Source: Stenotrophobium rhamnosiphilum (GTDB lineage: Bacteria; Pseudomonadota; Gammaproteobacteria; Nevskiales; Nevskiaceae). From it: DNA of 64,000 bases. Each line of letters begins with the position of its first letter. The stretch's first letter is position 1. Where the stretch lies: assembly GCF_003052265.1 (NCBI RefSeq), contig NZ_QANS01000004.1:310414-374413 (forward strand), read 5' to 3'. Shown here one piece after another: positions 2,352 to 4,906 of this stretch. Made by a program: the position numbers and the translations under genes. Below the pieces are notes generated by a model. The model made no database searches, had not been told where the DNA came from, and was given only the letters and a program-made list of their open reading frames with translations.

Positions 2352-2729
2352 ATGCGCGCAATCATCGTCGTTGCATTATTTGCAGTGAGCACTACATGTG
2401 CAGCACAAGGTCCAGACATTCTTGCGATATACGATCAGTTCGTGACTTCGCGCGCTGCTACGGCCAAATGTGTATCTCCCCCGCCGGAATCTCTCGGTCG
2501 ATTTCTTACGAACTTTAAGATGGTCTCGGGATACGCGGCGCAGGAAGTGAAGAATCGCCGGCCCAAGATGACGGTGAAGCAAGTCCAAGCGCTTATGAAA
2601 GGTCGGACGGCTGCTATCACATCAAGTGTTAATTCTTTGGTCGCAGAAAAAGGTTGTAGTAATCCTGACATTCAACAGCTGGTGCGTCGCTTTGAGGTTC
2701 AGGCCCAACCGATACCCGGAAAGCGATAG
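2352..2729 (+). CDS. small secreted protein of unknown function
   Basis: 125 aa, family not recognised. The first 18-19 residues form a Sec-type signal peptide (MRAIIVVALFAVSTTCAAQ) with a likely AxA cleavage before Q19; the Cys in it is not in a lipobox context. The mature part is predicted helical, basic and hydrophilic, and carries just two cysteines, C40 and C102, which could form one disulfide in the periplasm. A good AGGAA ribosome binding site lies 8 nt before the ATG, and the gene follows lptG on the same strand with a 26-nt gap, so it may be co-transcribed. No catalytic motif is visible. No function can be assigned. Confidence 0.7.
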   Translation: MRAIIVVALFAVSTTCAAQGPDILAIYDQFVTSRAATAKCVSPPPESLGRFLTNFKMVSGYAAQEVKNRRPKMTVKQVQALMKGRTAAITSSVNSLVAEKGCSNPDIQQLVRRFEVQAQPIPGKR

Positions 2730-2789
2730 CTAATCACTGGTTCCAGTCGACATATTCGCTTTGTCGAGAATCCAGACTTGAATTAGCTG

Positions 2790-3227
2790 CTAGCTCGCCT
2801 TTGGAACAAAAACGACTTCGGTATCTGCAGCAATGTCATGCCAGCTGCGCTTGCGGCGATCGATTAAGCACCAGAGCATTCCCAGACCCAGCACGCTCAA
2901 AGAAAAAATGGAGATGGCGAAACGCAACATTGCGTTCGCCCAATTGACGCTGCGGCCATCTGAGCGTTGTACTTGAATGCGCCAGGCACGCATGCCCAAT
3001 GTTTGTCCGCCGTGTGTCCAAAACCAGCCGTAGAACCCAAACGTGATCGCGAACATGTAGGCGCGCATGAACGTTGGCGGTAGCGCGCCTTGTGCGCCGA
3101 GCAAATGTGAAACGGCCCAGGCAGTAAACGTGGCTGAAAGCCACAGGCCGAGCAGTAGAAGAATGTCGTAAGCGGAAGCGGCCAGACGGCGCCAGAGTGG
3201 GGCCGGGGTCAGCAGTATCTCGGACAT
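2790..3227 (-). CDS. RDD family inner-membrane protein
   Basis: 145 aa from the ATG at 3227 (MSEILLTPAPLWRRLAASAYD). The reading frame stays open upstream to 3425, but that extension runs through tRNA-like repeats and has no RDD homology, so 3227 is preferred. RDD domain features: the R-R-x-x-A-x-x-Y-D start of the first helix, a first membrane segment around DILLLLGLWLSATFTAWAV, a second around MFAITFGFYGWFWTHGGQTLGMRAWRIQV with the typical G-Q-T-x-G-M motif, and a third around FAISIFSLSVLGLGMLWCL, ending RKRSWHDIAADTEVV. RDD proteins are small membrane proteins, some implicated in cation transport; the role here is unknown. It lies downstream of tRNA-Glu and its repeats on the same strand and might be read from the tRNA promoter. 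Confidence 0.85.
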   Translation of the reverse strand: MSEILLTPAPLWRRLAASAYDILLLLGLWLSATFTAWAVSHLLGAQGALPPTFMRAYMFAITFGFYGWFWTHGGQTLGMRAWRIQVQRSDGRSVNWANAMLRFAISIFSLSVLGLGMLWCLIDRRKRSWHDIAADTEVVFVPKAS

Positions 3228-3252
3228 GGGCTCACAGAGGTTGATGAGCGCA

Positions 3253-3268
3253 CCTGCCAGTCGGCAGG
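3253..3268 (-). other. short perfect hairpin after the tRNA-like repeats
   Basis: CCTGCC (3253-3258) and GGCAGG (3263-3268) form a 6-bp perfect stem with a 4-nt loop, between the last tRNA-like repeat and the RDD gene on the minus strand. There is no U-run after it, so it is not a standard terminator; it could be a processing or 3'-end stability structure for the tRNA transcript. Confidence 0.35.
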
Positions 3269-3278
3269 GCAAATTTAA

Positions 3279-3433
3279 TGGCGCTCGTGCCGGGATTCGA
3301 AACCGCCGGAATAAGTGCCAAGCCTTGAGAGGGCCCCGCCTTTTCGCATGAAACTTTGTGGCGCTCCTACCGGGATTTGAACCCGGCGGAATAAGTGCAG
3401 GCCTTGAGAGGGCCCGTCTTTCCACAAACTTTG
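3279..3433 (-). repeat. two tandem degenerate copies of the tRNA-Glu 3' part
   Basis: Immediately downstream of tRNA-Glu (minus strand) are two further copies of its anticodon arm, T arm, 3' acceptor strand and CCA. The CCA complements lie at 3434-3436 (true tRNA), 3359-3361 and 3279-3281, spaced 75 and 80 bp. Both copies keep the CTCTCAA anticodon loop in a pairable stem, but lack the 5' acceptor strand and the D arm, and carry an inserted ACTTATTCCG-type segment where the variable region should be. The first copy keeps a perfect T arm (CCGGG/CCCGG); the second is more decayed. Because both 5' parts are missing they cannot fold as tRNAs. They resemble the rtT repeats behind E. coli tyrT, or residual att duplications from integrative elements; no integrase is present here. 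Confidence 0.85.
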
Positions 3434-3509
3434 TGGCGCTCCTACCGGGATTCGAACCCGGGTTTAGGCCTTGAGAGGGCCCCGTCCTAGGCCTCTAGAC
3501 GATAGGAGC
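3434..3509 (-). tRNA. tRNA-Glu (anticodon CTC)
   Basis: 76 nt including an encoded CCA (complement TGG at 3434-3436). On the minus strand the 5' acceptor strand GCTCCTA pairs with TAGGAGC; the D-arm region has the TCGTCTAGAGGCCTAGGAC pattern typical of bacterial tRNA-Glu; the anticodon stem GGGCC/GGCCT closes the loop CTCTCAA, giving anticodon CTC (reads GAG); the T arm is CCGGG-TTCGAAT-CCCGG. E. coli has only the TTC isoacceptor, so a second tRNA-Glu must be expected elsewhere in this genome to read GAA. Confidence 0.95.
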
Positions 3510-3533
3510 GTGCGAGAGGGCAAAGCGGCGGGT

Positions 3534-3562
3534 ATCATACGCAGCAGCAGTGCCAGTCACAA
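3534..3562 (-). promoter_or_regulatory. tRNA-Glu promoter
   Basis: On the minus strand TTGTGA (complement of 3557-3562) and TATGAT (complement of 3534-3539) are separated by 17 nt, and are followed by a GC-rich discriminator (ACCCGCCGC) as is typical of stable-RNA promoters under stringent control. Predicted start is about 15-20 nt before the tRNA 5' end. Confidence 0.65.
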
Positions 3563-3585
3563 GGCGAGCACAACGAAAAAGTATC

Positions 3586-3601
3586 AGGAATTTAAGTCAT
3601 T
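3586..3601 (+). promoter_or_regulatory. Shine-Dalgarno and AUU start codon of pcnB
   Basis: AGGAA at 3586-3590, eight nucleotides, then ATT at 3599-3601. The stop codon TAA at 3593-3595 is in frame directly upstream, so no earlier start can produce the conserved N-terminal segment. AUU initiation is discriminated against by IF3 and keeps PcnB levels low in E. coli; the same limit probably applies here (inference). Confidence 0.7.
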
Positions 3602-4906
3602 ACCGAACCAACACGCATTCCGCGCGCGGAGCATTCAATCTCCCGTTCGCAGATCTCACAGGGCACGCTCAAGGTGCTCTATACCCTTAAGGATGCCGGT
3701 TACGAGGCCTATATGGTCGGCGGCGGCGTGCGCGATCTGTTGGCGGGTCTGGAGCCTAAAGACTTTGATATCGCGACCAACGCCCATCCGGATCAGGTCA
3801 AGGCGATCTTCCGTTCTTGCCGTTTAGTCGGACGTCGTTTTGTGATCTGCCATGTACGTCATGGCAACGAAATTTCTGAAGTCACCACGTTCCGCGGTCC
3901 GATCACGGACGAGCATGAGCGTGACGACACCGGCCGCATTCTCAATGACAACGAATACGGCACGCTTGAGGAAGATGCGTTCCGTCGCGACTTCACGATC
4001 AATGCGCTGTACTACGACATCCGTGATTTTTCGATTATTGATTTCGCTGATGGCTTGACGGATATGAAGCGTGGCGTGATTCGTCTGATCGGCGATCCCG
4101 AACTGCGCTATCGCGAAGATGCGGTGCGCATGCTGCGTGCGGTGCGTATTGCCAACAAAATGAACTTCAAGCTGGATGGTCCAACGGCCAAGCCGATTCC
4201 GAAACTGGCGCCACTGCTTGCGGAAATTCCGGCAGCACGTTTGTTTGATGAAGTGCTGAAGGTGATGCTGAATAAGCAGGCTGTGAATAACTTCCTGCAA
4301 CTGCGTGAGCTGGGTCTGTTTGCTCAGCTGTTTCCGCAGACTGAAAAAGCGATTGAAGATGCGCGCAGTTACAACTTTGTTGTTGGCGCGTTGCTGAATA
4401 CTGCTGATCGAATGAAGAACGATGCCTCAGTGAGCCCAGCGTTTTTCTACGCTGCGTTGCTGTGGCCGCCAGTGGTTGCGCGTATGCGTGATTTGATTGT
4501 GCGCCAGAACGTGCATCCGAATGTGGCGAGCGTTCAGGCCTGCGAAGAAGTGCTTGCAATGGCTGTGCAACGTATCGCGATTCCTAAGCGTTTCTCTTTG
4601 CCGATGCGCGAAATCTGGCAGATGCAGCCGCGCTTTGAAATGCGTAAAGGTGGTCGTGCAAAACGTCTGCTGACGCATCCGCGTTTCCGCGCTGCTTATG
4701 ATTTTCTGTTGCTGCGCGCGCAAGCGGGCGAAGCGCCGAAAGAACTTGCAGACTGGTGGACGCAGGCGCAAGTCGGTACGCAGTTGCCGCCGGTTCGTGA
4801 AGAGGCTGTTGATAGTGCAGACGGTCCTGTCAGCACGGAAGGTGCCGCGCCTGTGCGCAAGCGCCGTCGTCGTGGCGGTCGTCGCAACAAGAAACCAACG
4901 CCTTAA
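3599..4906 (+). CDS. pcnB: poly(A) polymerase I, apparent AUU start
   Basis: Adds 3' poly(A) tails to RNAs, marking them for decay. Motifs: GGGVRDLL and KDFDIATNA (nucleotidyltransferase DxD), CRLVGRRFVICHV, RRDFTINALYYD, the R-Y-R-E-D-A-V-R-M-L-R-A-V-R RNA-binding motif, and a basic tail (KRRRRGGRRNKK). The first conventional start is the GTG at 3674, but family-conserved sequence continues upstream in frame (IPRAEHSISRSQISQGTLK, compare IPREQHAISRKDISENALK in E. coli). An in-frame TAA at 3593-3595 limits this extension. The only plausible initiator between them is ATT at 3599, with AGGAA at 3586-3590 correctly spaced. E. coli pcnB is also known to start at AUU. From 3599 the product is 435 aa. 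Confidence 0.93.
   Translation: MTEPTRIPRAEHSISRSQISQGTLKVLYTLKDAGYEAYMVGGGVRDLLAGLEPKDFDIATNAHPDQVKAIFRSCRLVGRRFVICHVRHGNEISEVTTFRGPITDEHERDDTGRILNDNEYGTLEEDAFRRDFTINALYYDIRDFSIIDFADGLTDMKRGVIRLIGDPELRYREDAVRMLRAVRIANKMNFKLDGPTAKPIPKLAPLLAEIPAARLFDEVLKVMLNKQAVNNFLQLRELGLFAQLFPQTEKAIEDARSYNFVVGALLNTADRMKNDASVSPAFFYAALLWPPVVARMRDLIVRQNVHPNVASVQACEEVLAMAVQRIAIPKRFSLPMREIWQMQPRFEMRKGGRAKRLLTHPRFRAAYDFLLLRAQAGEAPKELADWWTQAQVGTQLPPVREEAVDSADGPVSTEGAAPVRKRRRRGGRRNKKPTP

Follow-up and report, generated by a model that had tools for sequence, protein, structure and literature searches.

A tRNA-Glu(CTC) gene followed by two partial tandem copies of its own 3′ part in Stenotrophobium rhamnosiphilum

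In the analysed stretch of Stenotrophobium rhamnosiphilum DNA (64,000 nucleotides, the window), the tRNA-Glu(CTC) gene was found at 3434..3509 of the minus strand with its CCA encoded (ARAGORN; Rfam RF00005, 59.4 bits), followed by two degenerate tandem copies of its own 3′ two-thirds, as the first-pass annotation had described. The tRNA and the downstream DNA gave a local-alignment score of 63, which was reached by 0/200 dinucleotide-preserving shuffles. The two copies probably represent an rtT-like array that arose by tandem duplication between the tRNA and an RDD gene and was partly homogenised with the real gene, and the array is most likely the scar left by a duplication and not a functional RNA.

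The units were arranged head-to-tail on the 3′ side of the tRNA, copy 1 as a 75-bp unit (3359..3433, minus strand) and copy 2 as an 80-bp unit (3279..3358, minus strand), which agreed with the earlier placement of both on the transcript side of the gene. Copy 1 contained, in order, the 8-nt trailer CAAAGTTT, a short leader, the end of the D-stem, the anticodon arm, an insert, the T arm, the 3′ acceptor strand and CCA, and the same order was observed in copy 2. The D arm and the 5′ acceptor strand were absent from both units. The content first assigned to them was retained, with the corrections that about 3 nt of the D-stem 3′ strand were kept in each unit and that the T stem of copy 2 was broken, with 3/5 pairs, vs 5/5 in the intact T arm of copy 1. 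The anticodon stem contained 5/5 pairs in copy 1 and in copy 2 (G-U counted), bearing out the pairable CTC anticodon arm reported for each. The 11-nt insert CACTTATTCCG was located at the junction of the variable loop and the T stem in copy 1 (3387..3397, minus strand) and, identical at 11/11 positions, in copy 2 (3307..3317, minus strand), whereas the tRNA contained a short variable loop at this place without the insert.

The 28 nt from the T arm to CCA were identical to the tRNA at 27/28 positions in copy 1 and at 24/28 in copy 2, where the acceptor strand contained two changes, and copy 1 agreed with copy 2 at 23/28, i.e. copy 1 was closer to the tRNA. A 16-nt stretch of the anticodon arm was identical to the tRNA at 16/16 positions in copy 1 and 15/16 in copy 2. 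The trailer CAAAGTTT was present after the tRNA and after copy 1, and copy 2 was followed by TTAAATTT. The identities formed a mosaic, copy 1 being tRNA-like from the T arm to CCA and sharing the insert with copy 2 only. Because of the mosaic identities, the insert and the trailer, the units appear to have been duplicated and then partially homogenised with the real gene. A palindrome, CCACAAAGTTTGTGG (3422..3436, minus strand), included the CCA of the tRNA and had no T run behind it. A mis-assembly is an unlikely source of the array because it was located inside a 454-kb contig and the two copies differed from each other. ARAGORN and Rfam called the full gene alone and neither of the copies as a tRNA.

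On the minus strand, a promoter-like site was followed by tRNA-Glu(CTC), copy 1, copy 2 and the RDD-family gene. The promoter-like site upstream of the tRNA was a consensus match to the Sigma-70 type, TTGTGA-17-TATGAT (3534..3562, minus strand), and one such pattern was found in the region vs 0.3 expected in shuffles. No terminator-like site was found in the scan of 2700-3800, and so none between the tRNA and the RDD gene, and read-through from the tRNA toward the RDD gene is therefore plausible on the sequence. The RDD-family membrane protein gene (2790..3227, minus strand; Pfam PF06271) was located 3′ of the array on the same strand, its start being set at the ATG at 3227. Upstream of this start the reading frame continued without a stop codon through the two copies as far as a GTG at 3425 (window 2790-3425, minus strand, 211 aa). 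Gene callers may therefore place part of the RDD protein within the array; a position near 3227 seems the likelier start. The gene pcnB (poly(A) polymerase; 3674..4906, plus strand; Pfam) was divergent from the tRNA, and its true start may lie upstream of 3674. A PcnB match was found in the same flank at 39/50 tRNA-Glu(CTC) loci, within stretches of limited length.

We infer a route of duplication from the array as observed, with its two units in order, the insert common to both and the mosaic of identities, and from the recurrence of own-3′-end copies at other tRNAs of the genome and the family. The segment from the D-stem end to CCA together with the first 8 trailer bases of tRNA-Glu(CTC) would have been duplicated head-to-tail on the 3′ side, the first unit would have gained the insert at the junction of the variable loop and the T stem, and the insert-bearing unit would have been duplicated once more, followed by the partial homogenisation of copy 1 with the real tRNA and the partial decay of copy 2. 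Slippage or unequal recombination, together with local gene conversion, would have produced these changes. The array would lie within a read-through transcript running from the tRNA promoter toward the RDD gene, would be trimmed off in the 3′ maturation of the tRNA and would be close to neutral for the cell. The full match between the two inserts and the anticodon arms that can still pair may point to constraint, or may only reflect that the second duplication was recent.

Copies of the own 3′ end were also found downstream of other tRNA genes. In four genomes of the family, 12/180 tRNA genes contained such a copy at a score of at least 30, with 4/43 in the own genome (G000), 2/42 in its genus-mate G001, 1/39 in G014 and 5/56 in G027, on a null that was slightly inflated since neighbours in tRNA clusters share downstream DNA. 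The query was the last 30 nt of each tRNA, and the scan was later rerun with the whole tRNA; 43/44 Rfam tRNA matches of G000 and 39/41 of G014 entered it, two of G014 being left out at contig ends. Rows scoring 25-26 were left out (Val-CAC of G014, Ser-GGA and Ser-TGA of G027), and the Ser-GGA of G027 contained an RtT match below the cut-off (41.5 bits). The copy ended at the last base of CCA in 10/12 cases and one base short of it in 2/12. Unit lengths, taken to the end of the copy, were 75 bp for the own Glu and 81 bp for the Glu of G014, the other ten cases being 112-195 bp and mostly hairpin-rich. The spacers were mostly rich in predicted hairpins, and several contained an inverted copy of the arm of their own tRNA.

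The four genes of the own genome with a downstream self-copy were Glu(CTC), Asn, Arg(ACG) and Pro(GGG). Behind the tRNA-Asn (L152, G000:C19:316900-317500) lay two units in tandem, each about 170 bp long; the first closed with an exact 3′-end copy of 22 nt, and the second had decayed. Behind the tRNA-Arg(ACG) (L160, G000:C15:711900-712610) lay a multi-hairpin unit that closed with an exact 3′-end copy of 22 nt, and a terminator-like hairpin was found, as read by eye, to be duplicated along with the 3′ end. The 3′-end copy of tRNA-Pro(GGG) was located at +117 in G000 and G001 (L163, L191), and this unit is therefore common to the two genomes that represent the genus. Downstream of tRNA-Lys(CTT) (L146, G000:C17:207000-207700), 26 nt matched the 5′ part of that tRNA in inverted orientation. 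In G027, the tRNA-Leu(TAA) (L265, G027:C1:2642040-2642690) was followed at +126 by a copy of positions 28-85, from the anticodon arm to CCA; the anticodon arm as a trait of the window copies only was rejected on this result of the whole-tRNA query. The motif GTTCGGC..GCCTCACCC occurred 19 times in 15/85 genomes; at 6 of these places (5 tRNA genes) it lay behind a tRNA whose 3′ end was copied at 21 or 22 of 22 nt, which was not so at the other 13.

The comparison covered 50 tRNA-Glu(CTC) loci, 48 of them within the family, counting the own locus, and 2 in other families of the order. A direct copy of the tRNA 3′ part within 400 nt (p <=0.01) was found at 8/50 loci, with about one match expected by chance from the 100 tests made on both strands. 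These were the own locus, those of G014, G076 and G018, and those of G008, G019, G027 and G032, the last four of one genus; L122, at p 0.02, and L134, at p 0.035 and with a match outside the 3′ end, were left out of the count. In G008, G019, G027, G032 and G018 the direct piece was 12-18 nt only, and a terminator-like hairpin was followed by a T-arm piece in inverted orientation (p 0.005 to 0.03). The loci L019, L021, L022, L023 and L026 contained a terminator-like hairpin and an inverted T-arm piece, with a short direct 3′-end piece about 150-210 nt downstream. Among the 50 loci, a comparable two-unit array was found in G014 only, which belongs to another genus, at the same place before an RDD gene, and its insert was of equal length and at the same alignment site as the insert of the window. 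On the two genomes and 8 insert bases that could be compared, the G014 array may be orthologous or parallel. The genus-mate G001 contained the tRNA-Glu(CTC) and the RDD neighbour without the array. The site, for which the first-pass annotation had also considered islands, is used for integration in G073 and G036. A repeated CTC anticodon-arm pattern was found in 1/85 genomes of the order, the own one. Eight contig loci of a wider database with a repeated CTC anticodon arm were rejected since none resembled the array by ARAGORN; a tRNA-Ser overlapped the match in 6/8, L077 contained a tRNA-Ser elsewhere on the record and L074 contained no tRNA.

The duplication reading is favoured by the repeated terminator-like hairpin at the own Arg(ACG), as tandem duplication predicts, and by the self-copies in the family (12/180), the copies at the eight Glu loci, the Leu(TAA) of G027, the array of G014 and the array-less G001. 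The shortness of the window units beside the other ten cases counts against it, as do the five of the eight Glu loci with a direct piece of 12-18 nt only. Because the window units are short and the others are longer and hairpin-rich, a shared origin with the other 3′-end copies would be an analogy of form.

The RtT model (RF00391) gave 53 matches in 21/85 genomes of the order at E <=0.01 and was above the cut-off in 11/85. Thirty of the 53 matches were fetched, and every one of the 21 genomes was represented among them; two of the 30 were second units of loci already counted, and three were without a tRNA called on that strand. A tRNA gene was present upstream on the same strand in 27/30, and a copy of the last 18 nt of the host tRNA (at least 15 matching) was present in 25/30. 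The hosts were Tyr, Gln(TTG), Arg(CCG), Arg(ACG), Ser(GGA) and Ser(CGA) (L290-L319). The stretches of L304, L309 and L310 contained RtT-model matches with no tRNA gene called. In a hand-chosen alignment of 13 RtT units (12 of the 30 and one from E. coli), 4/5 pairs of the stem that the inverted arm forms with the 3′ copy kept pairing through two-sided changes, with 1 to 3 of the 13 sequences broken or gapped at each, the structure being predicted from the same alignment that scored it. The inverted arm and the 3′ copy of the RtT matches in the order tended to fit the host tRNA.

In the window, no RtT match was found at the gathering score, nor in 3200-3560 or 3240-3433 up to E 10; the own genome contained none at E 0.01 (stricter filters), and its Asn, Arg(ACG) and Pro(GGG) units contained none up to E 1, which counts against a common family. 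No Rfam family was above its cut-off on the copies in a covariance-model scan of the kind proposed earlier, and copy 1 as a mascRNA-like RNA was rejected at 19 bits vs a cut-off of 42.5. No inverted copy of a tRNA arm was reported at the own Glu locus.

In E. coli K-12, three copies of the tRNA-Tyr end, each matching at 19/22 nt, were found downstream of tyrV, 178 bp apart. Like the rtT/RttR repeats of tyrT-tyrV, the closest of the known systems, the window units are head-to-tail tandem units on the transcript side, each closing with the 3′ end and CCA of the host tRNA, whereas the E. coli copies are separated by several hairpins and the window units (75-80 bp) are without a hairpin array, include the anticodon arm and fail the RtT model. 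The RtT-type units of the order are likewise closed by the host 3′-end copy in 25/30, but they contain a hairpin core and an inverted arm, and none was matched in the genome of the window. The Leu(TAA) copy of G027 includes the anticodon arm as in the window, but it is one 184-bp unit with a long leader. The window array is rtT as a kind of arrangement only and, by the tests made, is not RtT RNA, because it has no model match, no reported inverted arm and shorter units. The rtT parallel first drawn for the locus survives for the arrangement, relatives containing repeats at several tRNAs, and does not extend to membership of the RtT family. RtT at several tRNAs is not presented as new, since PMC4986893 connects RtT in E. 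coli with tRNA operons other than tyrT and reports members beside Asn- and Lys-tRNA genes in Actinobacillus, and PMC2965389 has rtT-like members among repeated attenuator elements.

The tRNA-Glu(CTC) is an integration site in two relatives. In G073 (L120), a 2946-nt stretch with a tyrosine integrase gene was bounded by tRNA-Glu(CTC) and an exact 27-nt repeat from the T arm to CCA, and in G036 an integrase gene was located directly behind the tRNA. With this use of the tRNA in the family, the units could be att-site scars of tRNA-targeted integrative elements that inserted and were later lost, with a displaced tRNA 3′ end remaining each time, an origin that is nevertheless unlikely. The att site of G073, the single one measured, involves the same tRNA and a direct repeat of its 3′ end, but the repeat is limited to 27 nt bounding the integrase stretch and contains no anticodon arm and no insert; a repeat of this type therefore does not simply explain the window units. 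The identity of the window copies with the tRNA end is interrupted by the insert and not continuous as in an att segment, the unit lengths are near-equal and the trailer is shared. The closest Phage_integrase match on the same contig was located about 111 kb off. Exact matches of the insert with its flank were confined, among the 85 genomes searched in the order, to the two window copies; with one mismatch allowed, 26 other places matched vs 39 with the reversed control. In viral contigs the sequence had 24 exact matches, none with tRNA T-loop or CTC-arm context. The att remnant suggested earlier is only partly supported, by the use of the site and not by the form of the units.

It is quite unlikely that the units are decayed tandem tRNA-Glu genes, whole extra genes that lost their 5′ halves. 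The anticodon arm kept in both copies would fit such genes, and part of the copy 2 leader was set by MAFFT, weakly, against the 5′ half of the tRNA. The 5′ loss, however, must have predated the second duplication or occurred twice alike, and the leader and acceptor strand contained at best 6/7 pairs in copy 1 and 5/7 in copy 2 over all offsets with G-U allowed. Across the 58 family genomes scanned, none had another full-length match listed near tRNA-Glu(CTC), and the second full-length matches were about 77-81% identical.

A working RNA, in the form of tRNA-Glu half-like fragments or a 3′-ETS sponge, is very doubtful because of the weak folds of the copies and the lost T stem of copy 2. A model for it is rtT RNA, reported in PMC4986893 to be freed from tRNA operon transcripts and to affect the stringent response, and it is consistent with the scan of 2700-3800, in which no terminator-like site was found. 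A 261-nt stretch, the tRNA included, folded better than shuffles (z -2.73), as did copy 1 with the trailer hairpin (z -2.35), but copy 1 without the trailer hairpin reached z -1.01 and copy 2 (z +0.79) folded no better than shuffles; the sub-cut-off Rfam scores of the copies and the array-less genus-mate also stand against it. The role of half-tRNA competitor or sRNA sponge that the first-pass annotation had offered is not supported, and the array itself is probably inert. Highly improbable is a class of small tRNA-adapted repeats located behind many different tRNA genes in the order, each element ending in the 3′ end of its host tRNA and pairing it with an inverted arm in the RtT type, of which the window array would be a minimal member without the hairpin core and with the anticodon arm kept, its Glu RNAs being freed in tRNA maturation and the arrays releasing isotype-specific 3′-end RNAs that tune the charged-tRNA response.

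The array led to a broader pattern, in which repeats of the own 3′ end occur in the family and the order behind tRNAs other than tRNA-Tyr as well, and the copy fits its host in 25/30 fetched RtT matches. An old question can thereby be tested by comparison, namely whether repeats of the rtT type pass from one tRNA gene to another or are built anew at each of them by local duplication.
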